Source: Niabella sp.
Lineage (GTDB): Bacteria; Bacteroidota; Bacteroidia; Chitinophagales; Chitinophagaceae
Direction of reading: 5' to 3'
DNA length: 50,293 nucleotides
NCBI GenBank assembly: GCA_017744795.1
Contig: JAGIAQ010000013.1
Coordinates: 1-50,293, forward strand
The notes below the pieces were generated by a model. That model saw only the letters and a list, made by a program, of their open reading frames with translations, had not been told where the DNA came from and did no database searches. Both the position numbers and the translations under genes were made by a program. This document shows, piece by piece, positions 28,353-47,885 of this stretch. Numbering within the stretch: position 1 is the first letter of the stretch; every line of letters starts with the position of its first letter.

Positions 28353-28366
28353 TCTGAATTTTTTGC

Positions 28367-29413: not shown

Positions 29414-29440
29414 GATCCGGTTTCTTTGACCGCACGGGTC

Positions 29441-30706: not shown

Positions 30707-30738
30707 TTTGTTAGTGTGTTTTGTTTTGGAAAATGAAA

Positions 30739-31968: not shown

Positions 31969-32000
31969 ATAATTTCTTTTTAAATCAGTAATTGAATTGT

Positions 32001-33980
32001 TTACCAGCCCGAGTTCTGCACCAGATTGGGATTATTAAGCAGATCCGCATCTTTGATCGGCCATAAATAATCACGGGGCGCTACAAATTTTCTGGAATAA
32101 AAAGTAAGCTCCCTGTAAAAGAGGTCGGCTGTTTTTGCGGTCCGGTCCCAGCCGGTCACATTGCCCGAAAGCTCCTGTGGGGCCGTTTTCCAGCGCAACA
32201 GATCCCAGTAGCGTTGTCCTTCGAAACAGAGCTCCACTGCACGCTCCCGCTGAATGATGGCGCGCATGCCCGCCTGCGTCGTGTATTTTGACGGATTGTT
32301 ACTATAATTATTCCAGCTGTCCTGCACAGTTCCCAATCCCGCCCTTGCTCTTATCCTGTTTACATAATCATACTCTTCCTGTGTAGGCGTTCCATTAGCT
32401 TCATTCAATGCTTCAGCATATAAAAGATACAGATCTGCCAGCCGTATCAGGGGATAAGGGTAAGGCGTGTACACACGGGTATTCCAGTCAAAATGCCAGT
32501 TAAGGATCTTTTTCATATACATCGTTGTAATAGGGATCGGCGAGTTTTGTCCAAACTCCCCTGCCCGGCAAAAAAGATAAAAAGTATTCTCGTCGGAATG
32601 GGTAGCACTATTGGCCATATACCAGATACACCGGTCGAAACCGATATTGGCATAATAACGCGGCTCCCTGTCGAAGTTGAGTCGTGCGGTGGCTTCCCCT
32701 TCTTTAACATTGAACCGCTCCGCATGTGTGGCGATGCGCAGCGCGGTATAGTTAGTAAAATCCAGTGTTTTGTCTTCATTGATGGGCACGCCGTTTTTGG
32801 AATAAAACATTTTTGCCATTTTCAAAGTGGGCCCCATCAGCGCGTTACCGTAAGTGATCCCTCCTTTCTGAATATAGGCCCGGTCATAAGCCGCTCCACC
32901 TATCGCCTGAAAGAAACTGTTAAAGCCCATGCTCGAATGCGTAAGGCCCCACACCAATTCTGAATTCCAGGGCTCACTCATAGCATTCCGGATACTCATC
33001 TGGGTAGTGGTGGTATCAGTAAGCGTAGTACCCGCCAATCCGGGGAAGGTGTATAGCTGTATGCCCTGCGCCGTACAGGCATCTATTGCTGCTTTACAGG
33101 CTGCGGCAGCTCTTTGCCATTTTGCTGCGCTATAGGCAGTATTAAACAAGGCGGTTCCGTCGTGATTCTTCAATCCGGCAAAATCAGTATTACCATTATA
33201 TAAAGGACTGGCGGCATATACCAGCAGTTTAGCTTTCAGGCTTAACGCGATCGGTTGCGTGATGCGACCCAGTTCCGATGCCGTATTGGCAATAATAACG
33301 GGCAGGTTCGTCAGCGAAGAATCCAGCAGGTTGGCGATATAATTTACGACACTATCTACCGGCTGTCTCGATACCTGGGTTTGAGCCAACGGAGCGCTAA
33401 TGGGAATATTTTTATCTGTGATCGGAATAGGCCCATATGCGCGGAACAGAATAAAATGATAATAGGCTTTTAAGAATTTTGCTTCAGCGATCCACCGGTT
33501 GCGGGTATCAATATCAAGATCAGGAACTTTACTTTGATCACTGATATTTTCCAGGAATACATTACAATCTCTTATAGCCCTGAACATCCCGTTACCGTTG
33601 CTATTGAGCGCTCCGTCCCTCGTTCCGCCCATATAGTTACAGATAGGATCGGAAGTGTTCTGTCCGCCCCTGGGCAATTGTAAAATATTGGATGTGCGGA
33701 TGTGTATTTCGTTGTCTTCGATCCAGTCTTCATCACTGGCCGTAATCCCCGGGTTATACGTGGGGTCTTCTTCATACGGCAGGTAAGAATAACAGGTAAA
33801 TAAATATTTCTCCGCTTCTGTTTTTGAGGCGAAAGCATTGTCGATCGTTGCAACGTTGTCTGGTATAACATTTAAAAAAGATTTCTTACAGGAAACCAGG
33901 CTTATACCCGCACAAACAACTAACAGCAACGAAAGAGACCTGTTCGTATTTTTTCTGTTTTTATTAAAATGATAGTTCAT
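32001..33980 (-). CDS. SusD-family outer-membrane glycan-binding lipoprotein
   Basis: A 659-aa SusD/RagB-type protein, the hinged lid over the SusC channel that captures oligosaccharides. ATG 33980 (MNYHFNKNRKNTNRSLSLLL) gives a lipobox ending SLVSC at about residue 32; the frame from 34124 lies mostly inside susC. The family pattern is present: KKSFLNVIPDNVATIDNAFASKTEAEKYLFTCY at the N-terminus, then WIAEAKFLKAYYHFILFRAYGPIPI (TPR helix). The C-terminal part has YPLIRLADLYLLYAEALNEANG, RERAVELCFEGQRYWDLLRWK, and ends NPNLVQNSGW. It starts 19 bp after the susC stop, which guarantees cotranscription. Confidence 0.95.
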   Translation of the reverse strand: MNYHFNKNRKNTNRSLSLLLVVCAGISLVSCKKSFLNVIPDNVATIDNAFASKTEAEKYLFTCYSYLPYEEDPTYNPGITASDEDWIEDNEIHIRTSNILQLPRGGQNTSDPICNYMGGTRDGALNSNGNGMFRAIRDCNVFLENISDQSKVPDLDIDTRNRWIAEAKFLKAYYHFILFRAYGPIPITDKNIPISAPLAQTQVSRQPVDSVVNYIANLLDSSLTNLPVIIANTASELGRITQPIALSLKAKLLVYAASPLYNGNTDFAGLKNHDGTALFNTAYSAAKWQRAAAACKAAIDACTAQGIQLYTFPGLAGTTLTDTTTTQMSIRNAMSEPWNSELVWGLTHSSMGFNSFFQAIGGAAYDRAYIQKGGITYGNALMGPTLKMAKMFYSKNGVPINEDKTLDFTNYTALRIATHAERFNVKEGEATARLNFDREPRYYANIGFDRCIWYMANSATHSDENTFYLFCRAGEFGQNSPIPITTMYMKKILNWHFDWNTRVYTPYPYPLIRLADLYLLYAEALNEANGTPTQEEYDYVNRIRARAGLGTVQDSWNNYSNNPSKYTTQAGMRAIIQRERAVELCFEGQRYWDLLRWKTAPQELSGNVTGWDRTAKTADLFYRELTFYSRKFVAPRDYLWPIKDADLLNNPNLVQNSGW

Positions 33981-33999
33981 TCCTAAAATTTTTATTTTT

Positions 34000-36900
34000 T
34001 TAAAGTCCAAGCAATACGCCAATGTTATACACCTTCTGAATAGGATACCCCAGGCCGGAAGACACCATTTCCGGATCCCAGAGTTTAAAGGCGCTGAACG
34101 TAAGGAGGTTCGTTCCGTTAACATAGATCCGGGCAGAAGCCAGGTGCGACCGTCTCAGCAAGGCGCCCGAAAGATTATAGCCGATCTCGGCAGACTTCAG
34201 GCGAAGGAATGCCCCATTGCGCAACCACCAGGAAGAAGCATAGTTATTATTGTACGTTGGGGCGCTTCCTACAGCATCACTGTTAATATTGAGGCGCGGC
34301 CAGAAGGCATAGGCGTTCCGGTTGTCTTCGGACCAATGGTCCTTTGCTATAATGTCCAGCAAGCCATGCTGATTATAAAAGGGTGAAATTTTTATCGGGT
34401 CGATCATAAACGAAACCCTGCCGGTTCCCTGAAAAAAGGCGCTGATGTCGAAGCTCTTGTAGCCAACCGAGAATCCACCACCATACTGAATTTCAGGAAC
34501 GGAAGGATAGCCCATAGGAACATAATCGCTTGTGGTTATTTTACCGTCGCCATTGATATCCCGGTATTTGATATCGCCCGCCAGCACATTCCCAAACTGC
34601 GTGGGCGAGTTGTTTACTTCCGTTTGATCAATAAACAATTTCTCGGCCACAAGACCGTATATCTGTGCCATAGAATGCCCAACATGACTAAGGTTGGCAT
34701 TATTAGCCGCATAGGCAGGCTCCTCGTTTACCAGCACTTTACTGCGCGCGTACGTGAAAGTACCTCTCGCCTGAATCCACAGCGAGTTGTTCAGTGTTTT
34801 CAGATAATCCAACGCCACATCAATTCCGCTGCTTCCCGCTTTTCCCACGTTGGCTGCGGGGGTGGCCTGCAATCCCATTGAAACAGGAATGGTGTACCGG
34901 TACATCAAAATATTAGTCCGGTACTGGTGATACGCATCTACGGTCAGTTTCAGATCATGCAGCAATGTAAGATCCATACCAATGTTGGTTTGTTGCGATT
35001 GCTCCCAGGTGATGTCCGTGTTCGCGTAGCGGGAGGTAGATACAGTATTCCGGCTATAATTGAAGTTGGTACCAAAGCCACCGGCAGCAGCACCATTCAA
35101 CGATACATTTGATAAATAAAAGAACCGATCGTTGGCATCACCGATCTGGTCATTACCCACCAAACCATAGGTAAACCTGAATTTCAGGCTGTTTACAACG
35201 TTTAGCAACGGCTGAAAGAATTTTTCATTAGAAACCACCCACCCTCCACCAACGGAAGGAAAGAAACCAAAACGGTGGTTTTGCGCAAAGCGTTCCGTAC
35301 CATTATAACCAAAATCAAATTCAGCCAGGTAGCGGCTGTCATATCCGTAGGTAAACCTGCCGGAGACCCCTTCGTTTCTGGAAGGTAATGATAACTGCAG
35401 GCTGGTTGCATTACCGGTAAGATAGTTCCTCAGGATCCCCACCAGCATACCGCCCACCGCGTGTTTCGCGTTAAAAGTACGGTTATAGTTGAGTGATGCC
35501 TGGCCATAGAAAGTAGTATTCAGGTTTTTATCGCCAGGCGCATAGGTAAGATATTCTGTAGGTACCGGAAAGGGATTACCGTTGCTGCCGTCGTTGATCA
35601 GGCTGATGCTTTGCAGTTTACCATCTACAATATTAGGACTATAGTAATAAGGGCTTACGGCTCTGGTAACCGAAAAATTTGCATAGCGGGTGGTATAGGC
35701 CATTGCGTTGGCCGAGAGCCCCTGGGTAATAAAATCGAAGTTCTGTTTTAAGTTTAGCTGGGCGCTCATGGTACTTGTATTAGAGCCCTGATACCCCGAC
35801 AAAGAAATGGCATAGGGGTTGGTATAAAGCGCGCTGGATCCCGGTACTACCGCATTCCCGAATAAAGGATGTTTGGCATAAGGCATATAGCTCGCCGGGT
35901 AAATCGCAGGAAACGAAACGGGGTTACCATACAGTGCGTAATTGTAAACGGTTGCCCCGCCGGAAAGATCGTGCCCGGCCTCATCTTTTCCGGCAATGGG
36001 CCCATTGTAATCATCAAACTGTCCCTTCAGGCTGATCAATGCTTCTGTGGTTTTGGTAAGGGTAAGCGTTACGTTGGAAAGAACGGAGTAGGATTGCAAC
36101 TTAATGTTATTATTGAACCCGTTCAATGAATTATTTTTGATATTACCGTTATCAAGGTTGTAGCTTAACCCTACATAATATTTTGCCTTATCTCCACCCC
36201 CGCTGATATTCACATTTGCTCTTTGGTTGGTAGCGGTATTTTTGATCAATTGCTGGATCCAGTTATTACTGGGATATAACAGCGGATCATCGCCGGCTGC
36301 TGTATGATCTATTTTTGTTTGCGGGTACAAGATAGCGCCCAAAGGATTTCTGGTAAGCACCGCTTCGTTGGCCAGCTTCATGTAAGAAACATTATCGGCC
36401 AGGCCGATGCTCTTGGTATTTTTAGACGCTGAATTTTCCAGCCGTACATTAAACTTCAGTTTACCGATCTGTCCTGTCTTTGTAGAAACCAGCACCACGC
36501 CGTTAGCGCCCCGGGCGCCATACACAGCAGTAGCAGTGGCATCTTTCAATACCGAAAAGCCGGCGATATTATCCGGCTGCAGCCGGGCAAGGTCTGTTGT
36601 GCTTGATTCAATATTATCTATCAATATCAATGGATCCACTTTCCCGGATCCAAAAGTCCCGATGCCTCTTACAAAGAAAGAAGCATTATCCTTTCCGGGC
36701 TCACCCGTTGTTTGAAAGGAGATCATACCCGGTATCTTTCCGGCCAGCATGGTGGTAAGGTTGCTGGTGGGGCCCTTTAATTCTTTGGGATTAATAGTGG
36801 TTACGGAGCTTACAACTGTTGTCTTCTTCTGGGTACCATACCCCACCACTACGACTTCATCCATGGCCTTGTTTTCTCTTAACAAAACAACTTTCACAAA

Positions 36901-37209
36901 AATGCCCTTATCGTTGTCCGCTTTGTAACGGGCTATTGCCACCTGAATCGCCTTATAGCCTACCGCGCTGACTTCGAGCAATTCATTTTTGGGTACCGAT
37001 AACTGAAAATTTCCGGATGAATCCGCATTGATCACCTGCCCTGTACCCAACGCACGTATCGTGGCATTTATGAGGCCGGTTCCTACACTGTCTGTTACAG
37101 CTCCCTTTACGACCACATTTTGCTGCGCAAAAGCAGCAGCGCAGCAACTAACTGCAACCAATAATAGCAAAACCTTCTTTTCGTATTTTTTCAGCAGTCT
37201 TCTTTTCAT
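34000..37209 (-). CDS. SusC-family TonB-dependent glycan transporter
   Basis: A 1069-aa outer-membrane channel. ATG 37209 (MKRRLLKKYEKKVLLLLVAV) is preferred; a TTG three codons upstream is also in frame. After the signal peptide (to about AFA) come a carboxypeptidase-regulatory-like domain (about 32-115, VVVKGAVTDSVGTGLINATI) and the SusC plug with DEVVVVGYGTQKK (about 120-132), SFFVRGIGTFGSGKVDPLILID and a VYGARGANGVVLVSTK motif. The long 22-strand barrel follows, to the C-terminal KVYNIGVLLGL. With SusD it imports oligosaccharides released outside the cell, powered by TonB. It is first in an eight-module operon with a leader of about 370 nt and paired operators upstream. Confidence 0.96.
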   Translation of the reverse strand: MKRRLLKKYEKKVLLLLVAVSCCAAAFAQQNVVVKGAVTDSVGTGLINATIRALGTGQVINADSSGNFQLSVPKNELLEVSAVGYKAIQVAIARYKADNDKGIFVKVVLLRENKAMDEVVVVGYGTQKKTTVVSSVTTINPKELKGPTSNLTTMLAGKIPGMISFQTTGEPGKDNASFFVRGIGTFGSGKVDPLILIDNIESSTTDLARLQPDNIAGFSVLKDATATAVYGARGANGVVLVSTKTGQIGKLKFNVRLENSASKNTKSIGLADNVSYMKLANEAVLTRNPLGAILYPQTKIDHTAAGDDPLLYPSNNWIQQLIKNTATNQRANVNISGGGDKAKYYVGLSYNLDNGNIKNNSLNGFNNNIKLQSYSVLSNVTLTLTKTTEALISLKGQFDDYNGPIAGKDEAGHDLSGGATVYNYALYGNPVSFPAIYPASYMPYAKHPLFGNAVVPGSSALYTNPYAISLSGYQGSNTSTMSAQLNLKQNFDFITQGLSANAMAYTTRYANFSVTRAVSPYYYSPNIVDGKLQSISLINDGSNGNPFPVPTEYLTYAPGDKNLNTTFYGQASLNYNRTFNAKHAVGGMLVGILRNYLTGNATSLQLSLPSRNEGVSGRFTYGYDSRYLAEFDFGYNGTERFAQNHRFGFFPSVGGGWVVSNEKFFQPLLNVVNSLKFRFTYGLVGNDQIGDANDRFFYLSNVSLNGAAAGGFGTNFNYSRNTVSTSRYANTDITWEQSQQTNIGMDLTLLHDLKLTVDAYHQYRTNILMYRYTIPVSMGLQATPAANVGKAGSSGIDVALDYLKTLNNSLWIQARGTFTYARSKVLVNEEPAYAANNANLSHVGHSMAQIYGLVAEKLFIDQTEVNNSPTQFGNVLAGDIKYRDINGDGKITTSDYVPMGYPSVPEIQYGGGFSVGYKSFDISAFFQGTGRVSFMIDPIKISPFYNQHGLLDIIAKDHWSEDNRNAYAFWPRLNINSDAVGSAPTYNNNYASSWWLRNGAFLRLKSAEIGYNLSGALLRRSHLASARIYVNGTNLLTFSAFKLWDPEMVSSGLGYPIQKVYNIGVLLGL

Positions 37210-37247
37210 TTTGTACAATTAATATTCGTTTTAAATCATTTGGTAAA

Positions 37248-37289
37248 TTTTTGACAATATGCTCCAGGGCCTCTTATAATTGTCAAAAA
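37248..37289. repeat. 11-bp inverted repeat in the susC leader
   Basis: TTTTTGACAAT (37248-37258) and ATTGTCAAAAA (37279-37289) are perfect inverted copies 20 bases apart. In the susC transcript they would form a stem-loop 40-80 nt before the start codon. One arm is also half of the operator-like site at 37276-37298. Confidence 0.7.
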
Positions 37290-37298
37290 GACACTTAT
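37276..37298. promoter_or_regulatory. Operator-like palindrome, susC leader site
   Basis: ATAATTGT-CAAAAAG-ACACTTAT has the same 8-7-8 geometry as the sites at 37606, 39729, 41168 and 46038, with a mismatch in the right arm. Confidence 0.45.
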
Positions 37299-37573
37299 AA
37301 AAAGAGGCAAAAAAAACCAAGGCATCAACCCTGAAAACATGAATCGCACCTATCGCTAAGGCGCTTTGGCAAAACCTGGCATCAGGTAAAGCCGTGGCAA
37401 TTCGGGTAATGACATTTGCAAGATTTTACTATTGTTAGTTTAAATAAAACAGCATCGCTAAGATCCATTCAAGCAAGCATCCTTAATTCTTTATCCAGCG
37501 ATCCCCTTTCCTTCAATAACAGCACCTGTTCTTCAACGTAAAGCATCCGTTCCATCAAGCAGCAACACTTTGC

Positions 37574-37585
37574 GCAAACGTTTGC
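37574..37585. promoter_or_regulatory. LacI-family-type operator on the predicted susC start site
   Basis: GCAAACGTTTGC is a perfect 12-bp palindrome with a central CG, the form bound by LacI/GalR-family regulators. It begins one base downstream of the predicted -7 box (37587-37594), so a bound protein would cover +1. Which regulator binds cannot be told. Confidence 0.6.
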
Positions 37586-37586
37586 A

Positions 37587-37617
37587 CGAATATATAAAAA
37601 ATATTTTAATTGTCAAA
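37587..37617 (-). promoter_or_regulatory. Predicted susC operon promoter
   Basis: On the minus strand TTTG (37617-37614), a 19-base spacer and TATATTCG (37594-37587) fit the Bacteroidota -33/-7 pattern with one mismatch in the -7 box. Transcription would start near 37580, leaving a leader of about 370 nt. Confidence 0.6.
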
Positions 37618-37628
37618 TCAACATTTAT
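37606..37628. promoter_or_regulatory. Operator-like palindrome overlapping the susC -33 box
   Basis: TTAATTGT-CAAATCA-ACATTTAT, one base short of the perfect palindrome at 39729. It covers the predicted -33 element (37614-37617). Confidence 0.6.
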
Positions 37629-37688
37629 TTTTTTGAAAATTTTTTTTTGATGGCCCGCACCTGAAATTTCAATATTGGCGAAACCTCC

Positions 37689-39668
37689 CTATCTATTGTT
37701 CAGAGCATACGGAATTCTTAACACCGTAAACGAATACGGAGCCAATTGCAACGCCGGTTCTTTACCCTGCAGTTCCAGCAGCTCCTCTTCCGGGTAAATG
37801 GCGCGCGGCGTTTTTAGTGAATTCGTTTTGTAAAGATCACGACTTTGCAGCCGGGTAAGCTTACCGGTGAACCGCTGTTTCTTTAATCCTGCCAGCGAAA
37901 GCGTAACCGTTTGAGCCTTTGGCAATGCGTTGACTACTTTGATAACAAGCTCTTTGGTGTGTTCATCCAATACCGCCGATGCATACAAGCTATCCTGGCC
38001 AGCGACGGATTTTTGATCCATTGTAAGCGGGATCACTTTTGTTCCTTTATTTAATGAATATAGTTTTTGCACGTAATAATCCGGCGTGCCAAAAATATCC
38101 AGGTTGTTTACCCAGATCAGGTCAGGCGCCCATTGCCAGCCGTCCACATGCGCAAACAACGGTGCGTAGGAAGCCATGCCCACCACATCGGCATTGCGCT
38201 CCAGTCCTGTAAGGAAGGCCGCTTCAGACAAGGCTGCCAGCCAGTTATTCTTTTTTTCAGCAGTTACATTGGGGTGAGAAGCATATTCCCCGGCGAACAC
38301 TTTTGTTTGAGTGCGTGGATACCGATCGTAACGTGTTGCATTGCTGAAAAACCATTGCGGCGGACGGTAATAATGCTCGTCAATAAAGTCCACTTTCAGT
38401 TTTCGCAGGCTGTCGTTCAAATATTCAAACCGCTTGCCGTCCGGATCGGTTCCGGAACTGGCCACAATTTTAAAATCCGGATAATGCGCTTTGATTGCTT
38501 TTTGAAATAAGCGCAGGCGGGCTAAATATTGCGGGCCCCAGTTCTCGTTGCCCACGCCCATCATCTTTAAATGAAAGGGCTTTGGATGCCCCATATCCGC
38601 CCGTATTTTCCCCCATTTTGAAGTAGCTGGCCCATTGGCAAATTCGATAAGATCCAACGCATCCTGAATATAGGGATCCAACTGGTCTACCGGCACCAGT
38701 TCTGCAGAATTGAACTGACAAGCCATTCCACAATTCAATATGGGCAGCGGCTCTGCACCGATATCTTCGGCCAGTTGAAAATATTCAAAAAAACCCAAGC
38801 CGAATGTTTGAAAATAATCCGGCGCCGCACGTTGCGGAAATTCGAAATTCCAGCGATTGATAATTAATTGCCGTTCTTCCACCGGTCCGATTGTTTTTTT
38901 CCATTGGTAGCGTTGCGACAGGTCAAACCCTTCCACAATACAGCCCCCCGGGAAACGGATAAAACCCGGTTTCATATCTGCCAGCATTTGTACCATATCC
39001 GCGCGCATTCCGCCTTTCCGGCCTTTCCAGGTATCAGAAGGAAACAGCGAGATCATATCAAGATCGATGCTGCCATCGCCTTCAAAAGAAATGCGCAGCC
39101 GGCCTTTTTCTTCGGTTGCTGTTGCTACAAAACTGGCTTCTTGTTTTCTCCATTCAGTGCCACTAACAGATGGCGTTACGGTAGCAGCGCCAATTACTTT
39201 ATTTTCCGGATCCAATAGTTCAGCATGAATCTTAATTCCCGGAACTGTCGTAGCATATAAAAAAGAAAAGTCATAACGCAATCCTTTTTTGATGCCCATT
39301 CCCCTGAAACCTTCATTGGTCAGTGAAAGATCTTCTTTACTATTATGATCCAGGGTAACCCGCAGGAACCGCGGGTTGGCCGTATTCTTTTCTTTACGAT
39401 TCAACACTAATACCGCACCCTCCCGGAAGTTGCGCTGCTCCACTTTCCACCCCATCAACGGTTTAAAAAACTCAAAGGAACGATTCTTGACAAGTTCCGC
39501 ATAGATACCTCCATCGGCGCCCATATTGATGTCCTCGAAAAAAACACCATACATCGAGGGGGAAACCGCGGCTCCTGGCCGGTTTACATCTACTACAAAA
39601 GTTTTATTTTGCGCAACAGCCCCCAGCGACAAAAAGAGAACAATAAAAAAAGTGATTTTTTGTTTCAT
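37689..39668 (-). CDS. GH51 alpha-L-arabinofuranosidase
   Basis: A 659-aa exported enzyme, signal peptide 1-19. It lacks the half-propeller of the other GH51 in the locus and starts directly with VDVNRPGAAVSPSMYGVFFEDINMGADGGIYAELVKNRSFEF. A carbohydrate-binding-like insert (about 80-215) precedes the barrel with GFIRFPGGCIVEG. The acid/base Glu is in GVGNENWGPQ and the nucleophile Glu in TKVFAGEYASHP. It removes alpha-L-arabinofuranosyl residues, probably in the periplasm. It forms its own unit: the promoter and operator lie at 39729-39786, and the gene ends 472 bp before susC's leader region. The two GH51 proteins are clearly related but not recent copies. Confidence 0.93.
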   Translation of the reverse strand: MKQKITFFIVLFLSLGAVAQNKTFVVDVNRPGAAVSPSMYGVFFEDINMGADGGIYAELVKNRSFEFFKPLMGWKVEQRNFREGAVLVLNRKEKNTANPRFLRVTLDHNSKEDLSLTNEGFRGMGIKKGLRYDFSFLYATTVPGIKIHAELLDPENKVIGAATVTPSVSGTEWRKQEASFVATATEEKGRLRISFEGDGSIDLDMISLFPSDTWKGRKGGMRADMVQMLADMKPGFIRFPGGCIVEGFDLSQRYQWKKTIGPVEERQLIINRWNFEFPQRAAPDYFQTFGLGFFEYFQLAEDIGAEPLPILNCGMACQFNSAELVPVDQLDPYIQDALDLIEFANGPATSKWGKIRADMGHPKPFHLKMMGVGNENWGPQYLARLRLFQKAIKAHYPDFKIVASSGTDPDGKRFEYLNDSLRKLKVDFIDEHYYRPPQWFFSNATRYDRYPRTQTKVFAGEYASHPNVTAEKKNNWLAALSEAAFLTGLERNADVVGMASYAPLFAHVDGWQWAPDLIWVNNLDIFGTPDYYVQKLYSLNKGTKVIPLTMDQKSVAGQDSLYASAVLDEHTKELVIKVVNALPKAQTVTLSLAGLKKQRFTGKLTRLQSRDLYKTNSLKTPRAIYPEEELLELQGKEPALQLAPYSFTVLRIPYALNNR

Positions 39669-39728
39669 ATACCCGTTAAAAGCAACCCGTTTTCAATTTC
39701 GTTTCCACACAACAATCAAGAGAATAAA

Positions 39729-39751
39729 TTAATTGTCATTAATACAATTAA
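39729..39751. promoter_or_regulatory. Operator-like palindrome, GH51 promoter
   Basis: TTAATTGT-CATTAAT-ACAATTAA, the one perfect copy: two 8-base inverted arms with a 7-base spacer. It starts four bases downstream of the -7 box, so the predicted start site (about 39749) is inside it. Confidence 0.75.
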
Positions 39752-39755
39752 TAAC

Positions 39756-39786
39756 CAAACTTATTGCATCCTTTATAAATTTCCAA
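39756..39786 (-). promoter_or_regulatory. Predicted promoter of the GH51 gene
   Basis: On the minus strand TTG (39786-39784), 20 bases, then TAAGTTTG (39763-39756), a perfect TAnnTTTG. This is the best promoter match in the window. It lies just beyond the stop codon of the upstream GH27 gene. Confidence 0.7.
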
Positions 39787-39798
39787 AAAAATATTCAT

Positions 39799-41133
39799 TT
39801 ATTTGATTATATAAAGTCCGGACGCGTGCGGGCACAAGCTGACAGAAAAATTCCCCCGGGCTTTCCCTGCCGGCTGTCCCGTCCACATATCTCTGATGTC
39901 TGCTCCCATTTTTACCCCCAGATCCGGCAGGTTTACTGAAATCGTTGCCGGAACCGTTTGATCCGACAGATTGAACAATGCCAGGTAATGCTCGCCTGTC
40001 CGGAGATTACGCGCTGTTACAGCTACTTGTCCATCCCGGGAAAACAACTGCCGTGTATCTGTACTTTCCCTGTGCATTTTTAATACGGCTTTATTGGTCA
40101 GCAAACTCAAGGTGAAAGGATCCATACTGGGCAGATCGCCTCCAAACATCAACGGGGAGCGAAAAATGGTAAAGAAGCTCATTAAAGAATACTGCTCATC
40201 TTTCGTGAGCCGGGTTTGCCGGTCGGCGCCGCGTTCGCCACGGATGGAAATTCTTCCTAAAGGAATCATATCACAGTCGGGCCAGCCGCCGGGTTTTATA
40301 TAGGGATACCATTGCGCGGCAACTTTTATCAGGTGCGTAATATGCGGCCATGTGTCCCACACATCATCCACCATACGCCACATATTCGCATGCGCCTGTA
40401 CGTGTGCGGCTTTATCAATGGGCGTTTCACCGGGGGAAGTGCTTAAAACAATCGGTCGCCCCGTACGGTCAATAGCCTTCCGGATCAGTTCAATTTCGTC
40501 CTGGTGATACGGACGGGAAAGATCATCCACCTTGATGAAATCCACGCCCCAGGAGGCATACAGCTCCATTAATGAATTATAGTATTCCTGCGCACCGGGC
40601 CGGTTAGCCACTACGGTATAGTTATCTTTCAACCACTGGCATTGCCCTGTGGCAGTATAGATCTGGTCCGCGGTCACAGCGGTGCCTTTCACCGGCATTT
40701 TTTTGGCAACCGCTTCTTTGGGTATGCCGCGCATGATGTGGATACCAAATTTGAGTCCCTTTGCATGGATATAATCTGCCAGCACTTTAAATCCTTTTCC
40801 ATCAATCGCAGAGGGAAACCGGTTGACAGCGGGCAAATACCTTCCATACTGATCCAGAACATAACGCGGATTGGTTTGATTATATCCCCCGGCCTTATCG
40901 TTCTCCACATACCACCGGATGTCAACAATAACATATTGCCATCCGTAGGATTTCAGATGGGCCTCCATATAATCGGCATTGGCTTTTACTTCCGGTTCGG
41001 TTACGGTAGGTCCATAGCAATCCCAGCTGTTCCACCCCATGGGTGGCGTTAAAGCCCAGTTTTTGAAAGACTGCGCACGAAGCTGGTGCGACAAACAAAA
41101 CAATACAACAATCAGTTTATACATTCTGCACAT
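39799..41133 (-). CDS. GH27 alpha-galactosidase / beta-L-arabinopyranosidase
   Basis: A 444-aa exported retaining glycosidase, signal peptide to about residue 21 (ATG at 41133 or 41124). The GH27 start LTPPMGWNSWDCYG (29-42) is clear. The nucleophile is Asp in GVDFIKVDDLSRP (D203 or D204), and the acid/base is in the MVDDVWDTW region (about 256). A C-terminal beta-sandwich begins about residue 360. Family members remove terminal alpha-D-galactose or the similarly shaped beta-L-arabinopyranose; both occur on arabinogalactan side chains, and the sequence does not decide between them. It has its own operator and -7 box upstream and ends 130 bp before the next gene. Confidence 0.92.
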   Translation of the reverse strand: MCRMYKLIVVLFCLSHQLRAQSFKNWALTPPMGWNSWDCYGPTVTEPEVKANADYMEAHLKSYGWQYVIVDIRWYVENDKAGGYNQTNPRYVLDQYGRYLPAVNRFPSAIDGKGFKVLADYIHAKGLKFGIHIMRGIPKEAVAKKMPVKGTAVTADQIYTATGQCQWLKDNYTVVANRPGAQEYYNSLMELYASWGVDFIKVDDLSRPYHQDEIELIRKAIDRTGRPIVLSTSPGETPIDKAAHVQAHANMWRMVDDVWDTWPHITHLIKVAAQWYPYIKPGGWPDCDMIPLGRISIRGERGADRQTRLTKDEQYSLMSFFTIFRSPLMFGGDLPSMDPFTLSLLTNKAVLKMHRESTDTRQLFSRDGQVAVTARNLRTGEHYLALFNLSDQTVPATISVNLPDLGVKMGADIRDMWTGQPAGKARGNFSVSLCPHASGLYIIK

Positions 41134-41167
41134 CGTTGGCGATTAAGTTGAGGAACAAAACAATACT

Positions 41168-41190
41168 TTAATTGTATTTTATACAATTAT
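41168..41190. promoter_or_regulatory. Operator-like palindrome, GH27 promoter
   Basis: TTAATTGT-ATTTTAT-ACAATTAT, near-perfect. It begins four bases downstream of the -7 box, the same spacing as at the GH51 promoter. Confidence 0.7.
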
Positions 41191-41194
41191 TAAT

Positions 41195-41202
41195 CGAATA
41201 TA
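41195..41202 (-). promoter_or_regulatory. Candidate -7 box of the GH27 gene
   Basis: TATATTCG, identical to the susC -7 box. The nearest TTTG upstream is only 15 bases away, so the -33 element is uncertain. Confidence 0.5.
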
Positions 41203-41232
41203 CGCATTTTCCAGAAACAAAGTTATACGGGC

Positions 41233-41304
41233 TTCCCGCAGATTTTAGGCAGATTTAATACACCGCTGATATCCGCAGATTGATTTTCTGCGACAATCTG
41301 CGCA
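41233..41304. repeat. Intergenic CGCAGAT-type repeat
   Basis: Variants of CCCGCAGATTTTAGGCAGAT and CCGCAGATTGATTTTCTGCG, of the same kind as 11451-11544. It fills the gap between the DUF2264 gene's 3' end and the GH27 promoter. Confidence 0.55.
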
Positions 41305-41373
41305 AAAAAAATCGGCTTCCGAATTATCGGAATGCTGGAAATGCAAATGCATCTGAAAGTCTAAACAGCTCCA

Positions 41374-42609
41374 TTATTTTAAATCCATTGCATGATCGCC
41401 GTGAAAATCCTGCCCGTTCCAGATGGCTTTTGAAGACCAGGGTTTCGGCGCATCTTTCCAGAACGGAGCACTGGCCGGCAGGCCCAGCGGAAGAAATACC
41501 TCGGTACACAGATACAGGCTGCCCTGGTTGTTATAGGTGTCGGCCAGTCCGTATTGGTTGCCGTTCAGCCCGATCACCATCCAGCCATTTTTATCATAAG
41601 TGCCGGCCGGGGCCAGTGTTTTTTGAATAACGGCAAAAAGTGCTTCCCGTACCTGCGCCGGAGCCATAGAGCCGGGCAGTTGTTCTTTATAAGCCATATT
41701 GGCCAGGTGATGAAAGACACCGGAGCGGTACACAATGGAACGCCCGTAAGCCGGAAAACTGCCGTCGGCATTGATCGAGCGCTCCTGGATCTCAGTATAA
41801 CGGTTATTTATTTTTACCAGCTGTTCTTGCTCGGCTTTGTAACGCCCGGTTTTTTCATTGGCGATCGTAATGATCTCCTTAAGGTAGGGCTGGATCACGT
41901 AGCTGTTATAGTAGTCATTATGAAAATGATCGCCATCACTGAATAAGCCATCGCCCACATACCACTGGTACATAAACGTACGCACACCGTATTCGATGGT
42001 CATGGGATTATAGTCGTATCCATATTTCAGAAAGAACGCTTCGATCATTCCGGAAAACAGGATCCAGTTATTGTAACCTGGAACCGTACCGCGTGTTTGC
42101 CTGAGACAGCTCACCACATTTTTTTTTGTCGACTCATCCAGATGCTGCCAGATCCAGGGCGCTCTTATTAATCCCAACGCAAAGAAAGACGCATCCACAA
42201 GGGGCTGACCACCTTTCCATAATACATAATCCGCCCGCGTACTGTCCGTTGCATTTTTAATAGCGGCCAGCACCCATTGACGATACTGATCGCGCAGCTG
42301 CACTTCTTCTTTTGTTCCGCCCTCCCCGTTCAGCCAGGGCGCTATACCACTCAGCGCCCGTCCGAAAGCCTCCAGGTACTGCGCTTTGATCCGTTCTTTC
42401 GGATTGTCGCTGATGGGCGATATATCTTTGGGCATATTGCTGCGCAAGGTATTGCGGGCAAGGTTTTCAAATACAGGACGCGCGATCTTATCCAAGCGGG
42501 ATAACCACTGTGCCCGCCCGTTATCGCTGCTTTGTGACTGACTGTAGGAATAATTTAGAACCGATACAAAAACAAGTACCCAGACAATTCTTTTTACTAT
42601 GATATCCAT
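41374..42609 (-). CDS. DUF2264-family protein, probable glycoside hydrolase
   Basis: A 411-aa exported protein. ATG 42609 (MDIIVKRIVWVLVFVSVLNY) gives the signal peptide. The mature part is an alpha/alpha-barrel-like DUF2264 domain: YLEAFGRALSGIAPWLNG, VLWKGGQPLVDASFFALGLIRAP, YNNWILFSGMIEAFFLKYGYDY, DGLFSDGDHFHNDYYNSYVIQP and INADGSFPAYGRSIVYRSG. Proteins of this family are found in loci for pectin and arabinogalactan. From memory some relatives are beta-glucuronidases (GH154), which would fit the glucuronic acid caps of arabinogalactan; this needs checking. It is last in the GH2-GH16-DUF2264 group, 77 bp after the GH16 gene. Confidence 0.8.
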   Translation of the reverse strand: MDIIVKRIVWVLVFVSVLNYSYSQSQSSDNGRAQWLSRLDKIARPVFENLARNTLRSNMPKDISPISDNPKERIKAQYLEAFGRALSGIAPWLNGEGGTKEEVQLRDQYRQWVLAAIKNATDSTRADYVLWKGGQPLVDASFFALGLIRAPWIWQHLDESTKKNVVSCLRQTRGTVPGYNNWILFSGMIEAFFLKYGYDYNPMTIEYGVRTFMYQWYVGDGLFSDGDHFHNDYYNSYVIQPYLKEIITIANEKTGRYKAEQEQLVKINNRYTEIQERSINADGSFPAYGRSIVYRSGVFHHLANMAYKEQLPGSMAPAQVREALFAVIQKTLAPAGTYDKNGWMVIGLNGNQYGLADTYNNQGSLYLCTEVFLPLGLPASAPFWKDAPKPWSSKAIWNGQDFHGDHAMDLK

Positions 42610-42665
42610 TTTTTTCTTATGCTTATTTAATGACAAACGAGGGGATTCCACGCAGCTACCGGTAT

Positions 42666-42679
42666 TTAACCGCGGTTAA
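42666..42679. promoter_or_regulatory. 14-bp perfect palindrome TTAACCGCGGTTAA
   Basis: Lies between the GH16 stop codon (42687) and the DUF2264 start (42609). It has a central CG like LacI-type operators, but also could be a weak hairpin. No -7 box was placed next to it. Confidence 0.4.
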
Positions 42680-42686
42680 GATAAGC

Positions 42687-43514
42687 TTATTTTTTTTGAT
42701 ATACCCTTACATAATCGATCCGATAACGTCCCGGGAACCGGGTCATCGAAGGATCGCCGCCATTGTCGCCGCCAACAGCAAGATTCAATAAAATATAGTG
42801 CGGCTGTTTAAACGGGTTAAATCCGTCAGCATTATTTAAAGCATCCAGTGGCACCTCGTTCAGCAATACATCATCCACATATAATTTTATGGCGGTTTCA
42901 TCCCAATCCATGCGCCAGATATGAAAGCGCCTTCCCCAGTTTTTATCTGCAAAAGAAGCCAGCGGTTTCCTTACCGAAAACCATTTTGCCTTATAGCGTT
43001 CAGCAGTGCCGCAGGCAATATTGGCCAGCAGCATTCCCCTGTAATATTCCATAATATCAATTTCTCCATCAGAAGGCCATTCCTTTTTTATCCCGAGTGT
43101 CCAAAACGCAGGCCACAAGCCGACTGCCGTTGGAATTTTTGCCCGCATTATAAACCGTCCGTATTTCCAGCTTTGTGTATTGCGCGTATTAATGCTGGAT
43201 GAAGTGTACTCTATAGTGCTTCTTTTCTTGCGCCAATCAGCGCTCCCCGCCTGATACAGGGGGTTGGGCCGCTGCTCCCTCCGGGCTTCTATAATAAGAC
43301 AGCCTTTGTGGCACCAGGCATTTTGCTGCTGATACCATTGTAATTCATTGTTCCTTTCAAACCCCTTTTCAAAATGCCAGACGGTGGTGTCCGGCCTACC
43401 GTTTTTATTAAACTCATCGGCCCAAACCAATGTATAGCCGCCAGCCGACTGGCCATGTACGGCACCATGAAACAGACTGATGATCCCGATCAAAAAACAC
43501 AAAGAATTTCGCAT
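42687..43514 (-). CDS. GH16-family glycoside hydrolase
   Basis: A 275-aa exported beta-jelly-roll enzyme, signal peptide 1-21. The GH16 catalytic motif is EIDIMEY (about 150-156, nucleophile Glu, assisting Asp, acid/base Glu). Other landmarks are the N-terminal YTLVWADEFNKNGRPDTTVW and the strand GLWPAFWTLG. GH16 covers endo-beta-1,3-glucanases (laminarinase type) and, in some subfamilies, endo-beta-1,3-galactanases. The latter would suit an arabinogalactan backbone, but the sequence alone does not settle it. The start codon is 3 bp after the GH2 stop, indicating cotranscription with GH2. Confidence 0.93.
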   Translation of the reverse strand: MRNSLCFLIGIISLFHGAVHGQSAGGYTLVWADEFNKNGRPDTTVWHFEKGFERNNELQWYQQQNAWCHKGCLIIEARREQRPNPLYQAGSADWRKKRSTIEYTSSSINTRNTQSWKYGRFIMRAKIPTAVGLWPAFWTLGIKKEWPSDGEIDIMEYYRGMLLANIACGTAERYKAKWFSVRKPLASFADKNWGRRFHIWRMDWDETAIKLYVDDVLLNEVPLDALNNADGFNPFKQPHYILLNLAVGGDNGGDPSMTRFPGRYRIDYVRVYQKK

Positions 43515-43517
43515 TGT

Positions 43518-46001
43518 TTATTTATAAGAAATTACAAAACTTTTAATCCCCTGGGCCGAAAAGGAAACCCGAATGGGGCCCGCCTTTCCATTCCTCTTTA
43601 TATAGGCCATCAGCCGGCCCTGGAAGGTCTTTTGCTTATTATCAGTGTAATCACCCATATCCCGGTTGTCGCCGGCTTCCAGACCCAATAGCTCCGCCGG
43701 GCCGGACACCGTACAAGTCAATTCTTTATCATCCGTTTTTACCGGATTGCCTTGTTTGTCCACGAGCTGCACCGCTACCTGGTATACTCTTTCTGACTGA
43801 TCCATTACAGGGATTTTTTCAAGGAGTTGAACCGCATAGGGTTTACCTGAGGTATGGATCTGTTTTGACGCAATCATTGTTTCCGCGGCATTTAGTCCTT
43901 CAACAGTCAACGTTCCGGGCTCAAAAGGTATGTCCCAGAAAATGATCCCGGTACGGGTATCCGGTGCTTTTGTTGCGCCAGCAACTTTGCCATTCAGCAG
44001 CAATCGTGCTTTTGCAGCATTGGTATAACACACCACGCGGATGCGCTGCCCGGGGGTATAATTCCATAAAGGCCAGGCATCCATTGACGGAGCCTTTTCT
44101 TCAGCACCACGGCTGGACTCATTTAAAACATCCTGCCCCGGGCCACCGCCCGCTTTTCCTGATATGGGGTAAGTGCCCAGGTAAGCCACTGGCTGGGCGC
44201 CCCATAAGGCCTGCCGGTAATAGCCCCGGGGTTTTATAAATCCGGCAAAATCCAACAATCCTGAGTAGAAGCCCCGGGAAGGCCACCGGCCGGATTCGCC
44301 CAGATAGTCGATACCGGTCCATAAAAACTGACCAAAAATATGTTCATTGTTTACCACCGCTTTCCAGGCATCGAGATCGTTCCTGTTTTCGCTGCCAAAG
44401 ATCACGCGGTTGGGATATTTTTTATGATCGCTTATATAACGGCTTTCGGTATAATTGTACCCCGCAATATCCAGTGCTGCGGGATACTCCGTCTCGTTCG
44501 ACATTGCCACACCTGCAAGTCCTGCTGTTACGGGTCTTGAACGATCGTATTGCCGCACTACCGCCGCCAGTTTCTTTGCTATAAATCCCAGGCGATTGGC
44601 ATCGGGTGCATCTTTTTTATAGCCGCCAAATATTTTTTGAGTAAAACCGTTTTCGGCAACCCCGTTCAATATCGGATGCGAATAAGGATCATTCGGATAA
44701 TCCACTTCATTACCAATGCTCCAGGCAAAAACGGACATATGATTCCGGTCGCGCTGCACCATGTCTGCCAGGTCCCGTTCACCCCAGGCTTCAAAAAAAT
44801 CATTATTACCTTCAAAACCTGGTGTGCCCACATTCCATCCCTCAATCCACTTGCGCTTGGCGAATTCCCATTCATCAAAGGCTTCGTTCATTACCAATAT
44901 GCCCAGCTCATCGCATAGGTCGTACAATGCTGGCGCCTGCGGGCTATGACTGGTGCGGATGGCATTGCAGCCAATTTGTTTCAATTGCAGCAACCGGCGG
45001 CGCCATACATCCTTGTAAAAAGCGGCTCCCAGCACGCCCGCATCATGGTGCAGACATACCCCTTTTACCTTCATCCATTCTCCATTTAACGCAAATCCTT
45101 TGTTCGCATCAAAGGTAAACACACGAAAACCGGTTTTAGTAAGGGTTGCATCCAACTGCTTCCCCTTTTGTACAAGAATAGTTTTTAAACGGTATTGAAC
45201 GGGAGTGCTCAAACTCCACCGCTGCGGATTTTTCAGCGTCAGTTGAATGTTGATCTTATTTTCTCCAGCCCCGGGAACCGTCAGCGGTCTGCTATCCCTT
45301 GCAACGATTTTACCTCCCGGTTCGATCAGTTCGTTCAGAACAGTAATACCTGCAGCATTTGCAGCCGTGTTTGTCACTGCAACTTCAACGTTCAATATCC
45401 CAGTATGATCCTGCAACCGGGGGTAAGCATAAACGCCCCATTGTTTTATATGAACCGGATCCGCATACACCAGCCATACATTCCTGTAGATACCGGATCC
45501 GGTGTACCAGCGGGAGTCCGCCGCGCGACTATGATCTACCCGTACCAGTACCTCGTTCTCTTTATTAAATACAACAAAAGGCGTTATATCATACAGGAAC
45601 GAAACATATCCATTAGGGCGTTTGCCCAGGGAATGTCCGTTTACAAATACCTCGCTCCGGTTGTACACTCCTTCAAAATATAAATACACTTTTTTATCCT
45701 GGCGGGGAATATATAATTGCTTCCTATACCAACCAATTCCCCCCGGAAGATAGCCCATACAACTTGCGTTATTTTTATTTAACGGCTGTTTAATACTCCA
45801 ATCATGCGGCAGGGTCACCTGCTGCCAGGATGCGTCTTTGGGCGGAATAAGGGCAGTAGTATCTTTGCTATACAAAGCAAAGCTCCAGCCTGCATTTAAT
45901 GAAGTAGCAGCACCAAAACCAGGTTGCGCCTTTAGCATAACCGGTTGCAGGGATAGCACCAATATCCATATCAGCAGGGAGCGTCGAACAGTCAATTTCA
46001 C
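43518..46001 (-). CDS. GH2 beta-galactosidase-type enzyme
   Basis: An 827-aa exported GH2 protein. The layout is sugar-binding sandwich (about 30-190, WQQVTLPHDWSIKQP, YLPGGIGWYRKQ), immunoglobulin-like domain (about 190-300), TIM barrel (about 300-600) and C-terminal DUF4982-like domains. The barrel opens with GVCLHHDAGVLGAAFY and has NAIRTSHSPQAPALYDLCDELG. Acid/base Glu is in MSVFAWSIGNEVD (about 438) and the nucleophile Glu in RVIFGSENRNDL (about 541). Most relatives are beta-galactosidases; beta-glucuronidase or xylosidase activity cannot be excluded. It is first in the GH2-GH16-DUF2264 group, with an operator 37 bp before its start. Confidence 0.93.
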   Translation of the reverse strand: MKLTVRRSLLIWILVLSLQPVMLKAQPGFGAATSLNAGWSFALYSKDTTALIPPKDASWQQVTLPHDWSIKQPLNKNNASCMGYLPGGIGWYRKQLYIPRQDKKVYLYFEGVYNRSEVFVNGHSLGKRPNGYVSFLYDITPFVVFNKENEVLVRVDHSRAADSRWYTGSGIYRNVWLVYADPVHIKQWGVYAYPRLQDHTGILNVEVAVTNTAANAAGITVLNELIEPGGKIVARDSRPLTVPGAGENKINIQLTLKNPQRWSLSTPVQYRLKTILVQKGKQLDATLTKTGFRVFTFDANKGFALNGEWMKVKGVCLHHDAGVLGAAFYKDVWRRRLLQLKQIGCNAIRTSHSPQAPALYDLCDELGILVMNEAFDEWEFAKRKWIEGWNVGTPGFEGNNDFFEAWGERDLADMVQRDRNHMSVFAWSIGNEVDYPNDPYSHPILNGVAENGFTQKIFGGYKKDAPDANRLGFIAKKLAAVVRQYDRSRPVTAGLAGVAMSNETEYPAALDIAGYNYTESRYISDHKKYPNRVIFGSENRNDLDAWKAVVNNEHIFGQFLWTGIDYLGESGRWPSRGFYSGLLDFAGFIKPRGYYRQALWGAQPVAYLGTYPISGKAGGGPGQDVLNESSRGAEEKAPSMDAWPLWNYTPGQRIRVVCYTNAAKARLLLNGKVAGATKAPDTRTGIIFWDIPFEPGTLTVEGLNAAETMIASKQIHTSGKPYAVQLLEKIPVMDQSERVYQVAVQLVDKQGNPVKTDDKELTCTVSGPAELLGLEAGDNRDMGDYTDNKQKTFQGRLMAYIKRNGKAGPIRVSFSAQGIKSFVISYK

Positions 46002-46037
46002 TTTTATTGTTGTTAGTTGAAAAAAATGACAAGCCTA

Positions 46038-46060
46038 TTAATTGTCTAAATTACAATTAT
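46038..46060. promoter_or_regulatory. Operator-like palindrome ahead of the GH2 gene
   Basis: TTAATTGT-CTAAATT-ACAATTAT. At the expected -7 position (46065-46072) the minus strand reads AGTATATG, a weak match, so the promoter is uncertain although the operator is near-perfect. Confidence 0.65.
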
Positions 46061-46084
46061 TTTTCATATACTATTGTTTATTTT

Positions 46085-47803
46085 TCACCACGTAAACCGG
46101 AGGAGGGCCACGCCCTGGCGGGGAAGCTGAAAAGCAACGGTGGCCAGCCCTCCGGCAGTCTTAACCGGCTGTTGCGGGCGCAATTGCTGTAGCTGACCAG
46201 ATCGTTTCAATTCCGCGACCTGTGCCGCCGAAGGTTGCTGTGGCGCTCCCATTTTTTTCCACACTTCATACGAATTACTGTGCGCGTCGTCAACCTGGTA
46301 TTGTTCCACCCGCACGCCTTTTGCAGGCAATCCTTTTACCTGAACGGTTACCGTTGCCGCAGGTGTGTGGATGTCATCATCATGATAATTCCATACCAAT
46401 ACTGTTGCTTCATGTGCTGTACCACAAGCGATCGCACTGATATCCGTATACTGCTTTCTGAAGCTGGAATCGACAGCCGTTCTTAAGTCATAGCCATGAT
46501 CTGAAACAGCCCGGACACGCATTCCCTTCATCATCCCAAACATCCGGAACACATTTAACACCGGCTTGTCAACCCCATTTGTGGCCAGGTCCCTGAATCC
46601 CCAAAACCAGGGCTGGTCCTCAAATTCAAATGCCCAGGAAACGGCTCCTTTGAAATGAATCTTATATTGATCTGCCAACTGGTATTCCCGGGCAAAGGAA
46701 GCCGCAGTGTAACTGGAATACATAGTTCCGTTCCGGTACGCATTTTCCGGATTGGTGTGCATGCCGCAGGCTGCGCAGCCTTCCGGGTCCGACTCTCCTA
46801 TAATAACCGGCAGCTCTTTTAACTGCGGATAAGAAGCAACAAATTTGAACCCGGCTTCAATATCTCTTAACTGGGTGCCCATATTCATACGAACATGCCC
46901 GTCCACCAACCTCGGCGCGCCCTTCGCGTGAAATAAAATTGCATCTATCGGCGTGCCTGTTTTTCCGGTGGCATAATTGATTTCGTAAAGGCAATGCTTC
47001 ACAAAGGCCTGCAGCCATTTTTGTGCATTAGCACTGGCCGTACCGGCAATATCTATTCCTCCTATTTTGGCTTCAGGCAGGGCCCGCTTTACTGCGGCAA
47101 CGGAATAGTCATACAATTTAAAATACTCTTCCATAGATCCTTTCCAGTAACCATTGGGTTCGTTCCAGACTTCCCAATACCAGGAGGCTACTTCTTTTGC
47201 ACCATACCGGGCAACACAATGTTTAACCCACTCGTACACCAATTGCCCCCATTTATTATAATCCTTTGGCGGATAAGCCCAGCCGGTCATGATGTTCCCA
47301 TAGGGATCTCCGGGCTGCCAGTGATGCCGGTAAGGTTCAGGGTGTGTAGACAATGCCTCGGGCATAAAGCCGATTTGTGCAAGCGGCTTCATCCCTCTTT
47401 TTATATAAGTATCAAAAATACTGTCAATAATGGTCCAGTTATAAACGGGGTTACCCTTTGCGTCTTCGGTGTAGGCATTAGTCGACCCCCATTTTAATGC
47501 AGCAGTTCCATCACCGGTTACCAGCAAACTATGACACCGCACATAAACCGGCACAGGCGACAACGCGGCCAATTCAGAAAGCAATTGCTTCCCGTCTTTC
47601 ATATAAGTATAATTGGGTTCATCATAGCCAAACCAGGCCCATACCGGCCACATCGGTCCAATACTTTGTTTCAGATCTACGTTGATCGAAGCCTGATCAG
47701 GGCTCGCTGCCGGCTGCGCTTCTGACCGAACAGATCCCATCGCGCAGCAAAAAAAAGAAAGACCAAAAAATAATTTCGCGTGCAGGCGCCATCGTTTGTT
47801 CAT
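46085..47803 (-). CDS. GH39-like clan A glycoside hydrolase
   Basis: A 572-aa exported TIM-barrel enzyme, signal peptide to about residue 30. The acid/base Glu is in SWYWEVWNEPNGYW (about 210) and the nucleophile Glu in PVIIGESDPEG (about 341), the clan A pattern. Overall it is nearest to GH39, with a C-terminal beta domain (EATVLVWNYHDDD..., RVEQYQVDDAHSNSYEVWKKMG). GH39 includes beta-xylosidases and arabinose-releasing enzymes, one of which acts on gum arabic arabinogalactan in bifidobacteria (from memory). A role on the same glycan is plausible but inferred. It is separated from GH2 by 83 bp that hold an operator, so each is its own unit. Confidence 0.82.
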   Translation of the reverse strand: MNKRWRLHAKLFFGLSFFCCAMGSVRSEAQPAASPDQASINVDLKQSIGPMWPVWAWFGYDEPNYTYMKDGKQLLSELAALSPVPVYVRCHSLLVTGDGTAALKWGSTNAYTEDAKGNPVYNWTIIDSIFDTYIKRGMKPLAQIGFMPEALSTHPEPYRHHWQPGDPYGNIMTGWAYPPKDYNKWGQLVYEWVKHCVARYGAKEVASWYWEVWNEPNGYWKGSMEEYFKLYDYSVAAVKRALPEAKIGGIDIAGTASANAQKWLQAFVKHCLYEINYATGKTGTPIDAILFHAKGAPRLVDGHVRMNMGTQLRDIEAGFKFVASYPQLKELPVIIGESDPEGCAACGMHTNPENAYRNGTMYSSYTAASFAREYQLADQYKIHFKGAVSWAFEFEDQPWFWGFRDLATNGVDKPVLNVFRMFGMMKGMRVRAVSDHGYDLRTAVDSSFRKQYTDISAIACGTAHEATVLVWNYHDDDIHTPAATVTVQVKGLPAKGVRVEQYQVDDAHSNSYEVWKKMGAPQQPSAAQVAELKRSGQLQQLRPQQPVKTAGGLATVAFQLPRQGVALLRFTW

Positions 47804-47862: not shown

Positions 47863-47885
47863 TATATTGTCTAAATTGCCCAGCC
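47863..47885. promoter_or_regulatory. Possible half operator ahead of the GH39 gene
   Basis: TATATTGT-CTAAATT shares the spacer of the site at 46038 exactly, but the right arm (GCCCAGCC) is lost. Only a half-site is supported. A weak -7-like TATATTGG lies at 47834-47827. Confidence 0.3.

Follow-up and report, generated by a model that had tools for sequence, protein, structure and literature searches.

Introduction

The closest described system is the arabinose regulator AraR of Bacteroides thetaiotaomicron (BtAraR, BT0354), for which the excerpts of PMC4666351 used here give four Protein Data Bank structures (5bs6, 5dd4, 5ddg and 5deq) and a crystallised oligonucleotide, GCAAAAGTGTTACTTTTACACCCATGC, that reads GTGT-N7-ACAC; these excerpts list AraR in Bacteroides and Prevotella. 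They single out as the most striking feature of the structure Arg180, which slides between operator base pairs 8 and 9, and report six base-contacting residues, including Arg180, as absolutely conserved among AraR orthologues. An R180K variant binds less well and yet still binds (PMC4666351, same excerpts), and therefore binding need not disappear with the arginine. Here, we describe five palindromes in a stretch of 50,293 nucleotides from Niabella sp. (contig JAGIAQ010000013.1; the whole stretch is called the window), which a first-pass annotation had read as operators of a single sugar-sensing regulator encoded elsewhere. On sequence grounds, they are very probably operators at which an AraR orthologue encoded on contig C41, a member of the NrtR family with a Nudix-like sensor domain and a winged helix, represses arabinose genes.

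This putative regulator resembles BtAraR in family and domain order, in nine of the 10 arabinose-contacting residues, in its inverted TGT-N7-ACA operator, and in a predicted regulon that joins arabinose catabolism, a glycoside hydrolase of family 51 (GH51) and susCD. It differs in that the half-site is mostly TTGT instead of GTGT, a comparison resting on one Bacteroides operator, the crystallised oligonucleotide; in the substitutions R180G, K184R and R205K; in that araR does not lie beside the ara operon in the assembly; and in a regulon extended to GH27, GH127, a DUF5703/AraC pair and an alcohol dehydrogenase. The AraR of Bacillus subtilis, of GntR/LacI type, is likewise an arabinose-responsive repressor with palindromic operators but belongs to an unrelated protein family (PMC4666351, excerpts). 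In a literature search, outside which most subscription journals lay, Bacteroidota AraR appeared only in PMC4666351 and PMC3878776, each represented by excerpts, and nothing was found on Chitinophaga AraR or on arabinose together with polysaccharide utilization in Niabella; in the literature searched, an AraR regulon in the Chitinophagaceae and its changed operator thus appear to be unreported.

Results

A pattern scan of the window found five TTAATTGT-N7-ACAATTAA palindromes, all of 8-7-8 geometry and assigned to no strand. Two AraR-type sites precede susC, at 37276..37298 (three arm mismatches, 58 bases before the listed susC open reading frame start, one half being GTGT as in Bacteroides) and 37606..37628 (two mismatches); a perfect palindrome precedes GH51 (39729..39751), and sites with one mismatch each precede GH27 (41168..41190) and the GH2-GH16-DUF2264 genes (46038..46060). 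The coordinates, shared geometry and upstream positions of the first-pass annotation are thereby confirmed. With up to three arm mismatches allowed, six matches were found where 0.65 were expected, a number that none of 100 shuffles reached; the sixth, at 10324, has three mismatches and is taken as probably a chance match because one side lacks TGT. A half-site at 47863 before GH39 was rejected as a site, since ATTGTC stands there alone, its second arm missing.

In what follows, G000 is the genome to which the window belongs, other G numbers are genomes of relatives, C numbers are contigs and L numbers are fetched loci; controls are the same pattern reversed, that is, read backwards. Whether the motif merely recurs at A/T-rich positions, a concern already voiced in the first-pass annotation, receives a divided answer. 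The motif separates from background in its strict form only, because the exact core TAATTGT-N7-ACAATTA beats the control (seven sites in the own genome versus none), whereas the 23-mer with up to three mismatches (67 matches versus 64) and the 21-mer core with up to two (57 versus 49) do not. Across the genus, the exact core occurs at 57 sites in 15 of 17 genomes, against one for the control. When spacers of 1 to 16 bases were allowed, exactly seven bases separated the arms in 57 of 64 genus matches (including one scored as a one-base spacer that falls within a seven-base site) and in seven of eight in the own genome; the remaining seven genus matches have spacers of 5, 10, 11, 12, 14 and 15 bases, and the reversed control gave seven matches in all. 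The seven-base spacer is therefore specific. Chance palindromes in A/T-rich DNA would account for the equal genome and control counts at two to three mismatches, and for isolated sites of that quality chance stays open; as an explanation of the strong sites it is contradicted by the exact core, the spacer and the conservation at orthologous promoters, and we consider it next to impossible. Viral contigs scanned for the exact core yielded at least 120 stretches without useful context, which entered no conclusion.

The own genome holds two NrtR-type genes. The araR orthologue (G000:C41:44-745, minus strand) was assigned by profile and structure-database matches and by its pocket residues. Its product matches PF00293, PF21906 and PF19368 above their cut-offs (NrtR_WHD and AraR_C among them), and its best solved relative is BtAraR (E 1.2e-60, 45% identity); among the best 80 of 594 loci, the nearest named AraR locus is that of Niabella hibiscisoli (69%). 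The arabinose-contacting residues, as listed in the excerpts of PMC4666351, are identical in nine of 10 cases (Y5, R34, F36, G47, G48, F49, R86, F129 and H131), V92 being replaced by threonine. Its Nudix box, GGFIAKDESADEAAARILESLTGL, is degenerate, with three of the glutamates in GX5EX7REUXEEXGU replaced. The suggestion that a Nudix-related AraR might be the regulator is thus strengthened by an orthologue that keeps most of the arabinose pocket and by the BtAraR operator, whose GTGT-N7-ACAC falls in the same frame as TTGT-N7-ACAA and has the same N7 geometry.

The second NrtR-type gene lies on C163 (L152:1456-2145), upstream of a susC-type gene. Its product belongs to the same winged-helix family and matches BtAraR at E 4e-42, which makes it a conceivable binder, as is the TetR-type protein of C194, whose gene has an exact site upstream. 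However, the C163 protein lacks Arg34 and the pocket GGF in the alignment; five relatives whose sole match is at paralogue level (G017, G020, G028, G032 and G035) have no exact site; and none of the 36 exact sites found in relatives away from araB adjoins a homologue of the C194 TetR gene. We regard either protein as a highly improbable binder of the palindromes. The C163 protein is possibly a regulator of xylose or another sugar; it was likened to the xylose regulator BtXylR (BT0791), an NrtR-type protein of Bacteroides, by family alone, no XylR sequence being compared, so this assignment is a guess.

With up to one mismatch on the 21-base core, there are 14 places in the own genome, among them those before the window's GH51, GH27, GH2 and susC (twice) and one on C233 with one mismatch, whose neighbours fall outside the tally below. 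On C22, the site precedes araB of an araB-araD-araA-symporter cluster (araD being assigned by its position between araB and araA, with no family search). Further sites precede a second GH51-type gene (C77:5004), a GH127 gene (C133), a DUF5703 gene with a divergent AraC-type neighbour (C164), a zinc-type alcohol dehydrogenase gene (C214) and the TetR gene of C194; one lies at a LacI/myo-inositol oxygenase pair (C77:21502) and one within a susC-type gene on C221. Most, not all, neighbours are arabinose or polysaccharide genes; the DUF5703/AraC pair, the alcohol dehydrogenase and TetR are not obviously related to arabinose. A single regulator encoded elsewhere, as first proposed, agrees with the AraR orthologue on another contig and with the same palindrome before araB, the second GH51 and GH127. 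Weak sites within coding sequence on C45 and C6 were dropped, and the places on C51, C176, C190, C78 and C177 showed no evident arabinose context.

The sites are conserved in the genus. Of the 15 genus genomes whose araB start could be read (G003, with a partial araB match, was left out), 14 have an exact site at most 70 bases ahead of the araB match; the site of G007 is a GTGT/ACAA version. The 36 other exact sites, from 14 genus genomes, adjoin the second GH51 (10), DUF5703/AraC (seven), a leuC-like gene (four), GH51 (three, one only 37% identical), alcohol dehydrogenase (three), GH16 (two), SusC (two) and, once each, GH27, GH127, GH43, LacI and a protein assigned to no family. The nearest relative by AraR is G008 (96%); its GH51 and GH27 sites have the same arms as those of the window but differ in four of the 14 bases of their spacers. 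The 18-kb locus of G008 (L390) keeps the GH51/GH27/GH39 part, and no DNA match to window positions 28270-37706 (susCD) or 43566-46229 (GH2), nor a copy of their sites, was found in it; the modules of the locus seem to come and go together with their sites.

DUF5703 and the divergent AraC-type gene share a palindrome in eight genomes (L138:9991-10013, L374, L380, L381, L388, L394, L397 and L398), and DUF5703 may have an arabinose-containing glycan as its substrate. Sugar sensing is common among AraC proteins, and an AraC-family protein with the same regulon, such as that of C164, might bind the palindromes instead of AraR; its intergenic region has a site in the own genome and accounts for seven of the 36 sites just listed. 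An exact inverted repeat, however, is not a usual AraC site. Moreover, G015, a 100% complete genome, keeps three exact sites although its best match to the C164 AraC is only 39% identical, and in many other genera the palindrome adjoins araR and not this AraC gene. We judge this alternative very improbable and return to AraR.

Across 147 genomes of the family, treated as independent although they are related, as in the other family statistics below, the exact palindrome occurs in 22 of the 65 with AraR (defined by a match of E no higher than 1e-55) and in four of the 82 without (Fisher p 5e-6). We also examined araR loci of named genomes, taking the best 80 of 594 and counting as a site any TGT-N7-ACA between -300 and +1000 of araR in which five or all six of the flanking TAA letters match. 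Such a site is present at 31 of the 58 loci whose AraR has Lys179 and at none of the 22 without (p 3.5e-6); the inverted control gave none at these 80 loci. In four relatives (G031, G022, G019 and G007), araR and araB lie within about 3.5 kb of each other. Upstream of araR in the genus, 13 of 15 regions carry an AATTGT half, the other half being AAA in nine and completing TGT-N7-ACA in four, which suggests autoregulation of araR, a weaker case than that at araB. A de novo search for the operator of the group without Lys179 returned a different palindrome, TTTACA-N2-TGTAAA, 28 to 32 bases before araR at five of 13 Asp179 loci (L247, L248, L252, L270 and L277) and at none of the 58 Lys179 loci; an AraR that reads DNA differently may use it as its operator.

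The position of the sites relative to promoter boxes, called with the −7 consensus, is mixed. At GH51, the −7-like box TAAGTTTG (39756..39763, minus strand) and at GH27 the box TATATTCG (41195..41202, minus strand) end four bases before the operator, as the first-pass annotation had noted; at susC 37606, in contrast, the nearest −7-like box, TATATTCG on the minus strand, is on the susC side and the site lies upstream of it, and around 37276 the box scan found no −7-like box nearby. Among 50 sequences, a TAnnTTTG or TATATTCG box starts 21 to 26 bases before the site centre in 11 (GH51, GH27 and orthologues), and a weak TATTTTTA box stands at +25 in eight araB sequences, where the site precedes the box. 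A general rule that the operator covers the start site is not supported: at araB, GH127 and susC 37606, the nearest −7-like box starts 22 to 25 bases downstream of the centre of the site. This is where an activator could sit, and AraR might be the right protein with the opposite sign, its palindromes being activator sites or promoter elements instead of repressor operators. The sites directly after the box at GH51, GH27 and their orthologues fit blocking, and BtAraR, in the excerpts of PMC4666351, loses DNA upon binding L-arabinose. We consider activation unlikely; both positions could block polymerase, although the one before the box could suit an activator as well.

Discussion

Binding, repression and the effect of arabinose can be pictured by analogy with BtAraR. 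Each monomer of a sugar-free AraR dimer would hold one of the ATTGT half-sites that flank the seven-base spacer, and the dimer would repress from over or beside the promoter. L-Arabinose that enters the cell would occupy the Nudix pocket, move the winged helices and free the DNA, and this release would turn on together the import and breakdown of arabinose (symporter and araBDA), susCD uptake across the outer membrane, and the enzymes that free arabinose, GH51, GH27, GH127 and GH2-GH16; AraR would probably also damp its own gene.

Several observations weigh against AraR as the binder. Three of the six base-contacting residues of the C41 protein are changed (R180G, K184R and R205K; K179, N181 and K204 are kept), because of which we describe it as an orthologue altered on the side that contacts DNA. 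Its gene lies 44 bases from the end of a 10-kb contig and, in this draft assembly, not next to the ara genes; its own promoter has one good half-site only, and among the 15 genus araR regions read, those of G002 and G009 have no half-site. In the family, the exact palindrome is missing from 43 of the 65 genomes with AraR and present in four of the 82 that lack AraR. Exact sites also stand upstream of the C194 TetR gene, beside a leuC-like gene in four relatives and, as an exact core on C221 (L140:2370-2392), within the codons for the signal peptide of a susC-type gene.

The changed DNA face may have a counterpart in the operator. Glycine occupies position 180 in each of the 16 genus AraRs found, whereas 13 of 14 AraR-type sequences from other genera keep arginine, the exception being G023, and the genus half-sites are mostly TTGT instead of GTGT, base 7 being T and not G. 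Near araB, both half-sites are GTGT in four R180 genomes (G031, G025, G019 and G030), and other R180 genomes have ATGT/GTGT (G018 and G024), TTGT/ATGT (G029) or TTGT twice (G022); no araB-proximal site was found at G034, at one of two G018 loci or at one of two G023 loci. Near araR, in the best 80 of 594 loci, base 7 is T in eight, A in two and G in none for K179/G180 proteins, against T 33, A 18, G 14 and C 3 for K179/R180 proteins. The exact TTGT palindrome occurs in nine of 10 G180 genomes, 12 of 47 R180 genomes and one of eight with neither K179 form (p 2.5e-4 for G180 versus R180). A strict rule that R180G dictates TTGT was rejected, as Chitinophaga-type R180 AraRs and G022 also have TTGT half-sites. 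On the tree, position 180 changed at least four times, giving three well-supported independent pairs (four with all branches); on average, 1.0 of the three is concordant, 0.0 is discordant and 2.0 are undecided. Because independent pairs are too few to support a test, shared ancestry could explain the G180-TTGT link, which rests on three to four lineages and whose causality is unproven. Tentatively, and with more doubt than confidence, we put forward that R180G and the change from G to T at base 7, the adjacent base pair in each half-site, form a natural one-residue, one-base specificity switch and a second way for AraR to read its operator, without intercalation, and that Mucilaginibacter and Puia-type lineages, having lost Lys179, went over to an altogether different operator. 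Such a system would offer a natural test of the role of the intercalating arginine, with whole lineages that lack Arg180 and yet keep spacing and regulon, and the predicted AraR would be a sequence-based master switch for the use of arabinose and arabinose polymers in a family of environmental Bacteroidota.

The genes behind the five sites all lie on the minus strand and were identified by Pfam matches: a susD-like protein (32001..34124), a susC-like TonB-dependent receptor (34000..37218, whose true start codon may be further in), a GH51-type alpha-L-arabinofuranosidase with ASD1_dom and Alpha-L-AF_C (37689..39668), a GH27-type (Melibiase_2) enzyme (39799..41133), a DUF2264 protein (41374..42651), GH16 (42687..43514) and GH2 (43518..46001). 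GH39 (46085..47803, minus strand, Pfam) has no convincing operator of its own. Before susC, a LacI-type palindrome, GCAAACGTTTGC (37574-37585), abuts the −7-like box at 37587-37594 (minus strand) and is a possible site for a second regulator of the susC promoter. In four genus genomes (L387, L392, L402 and L406), the exact palindrome stands 162 to 165 bases before the leuC-like gene, which is of the aconitase family; in L402, a gene for a thioredoxin-domain protein is divergent from it.

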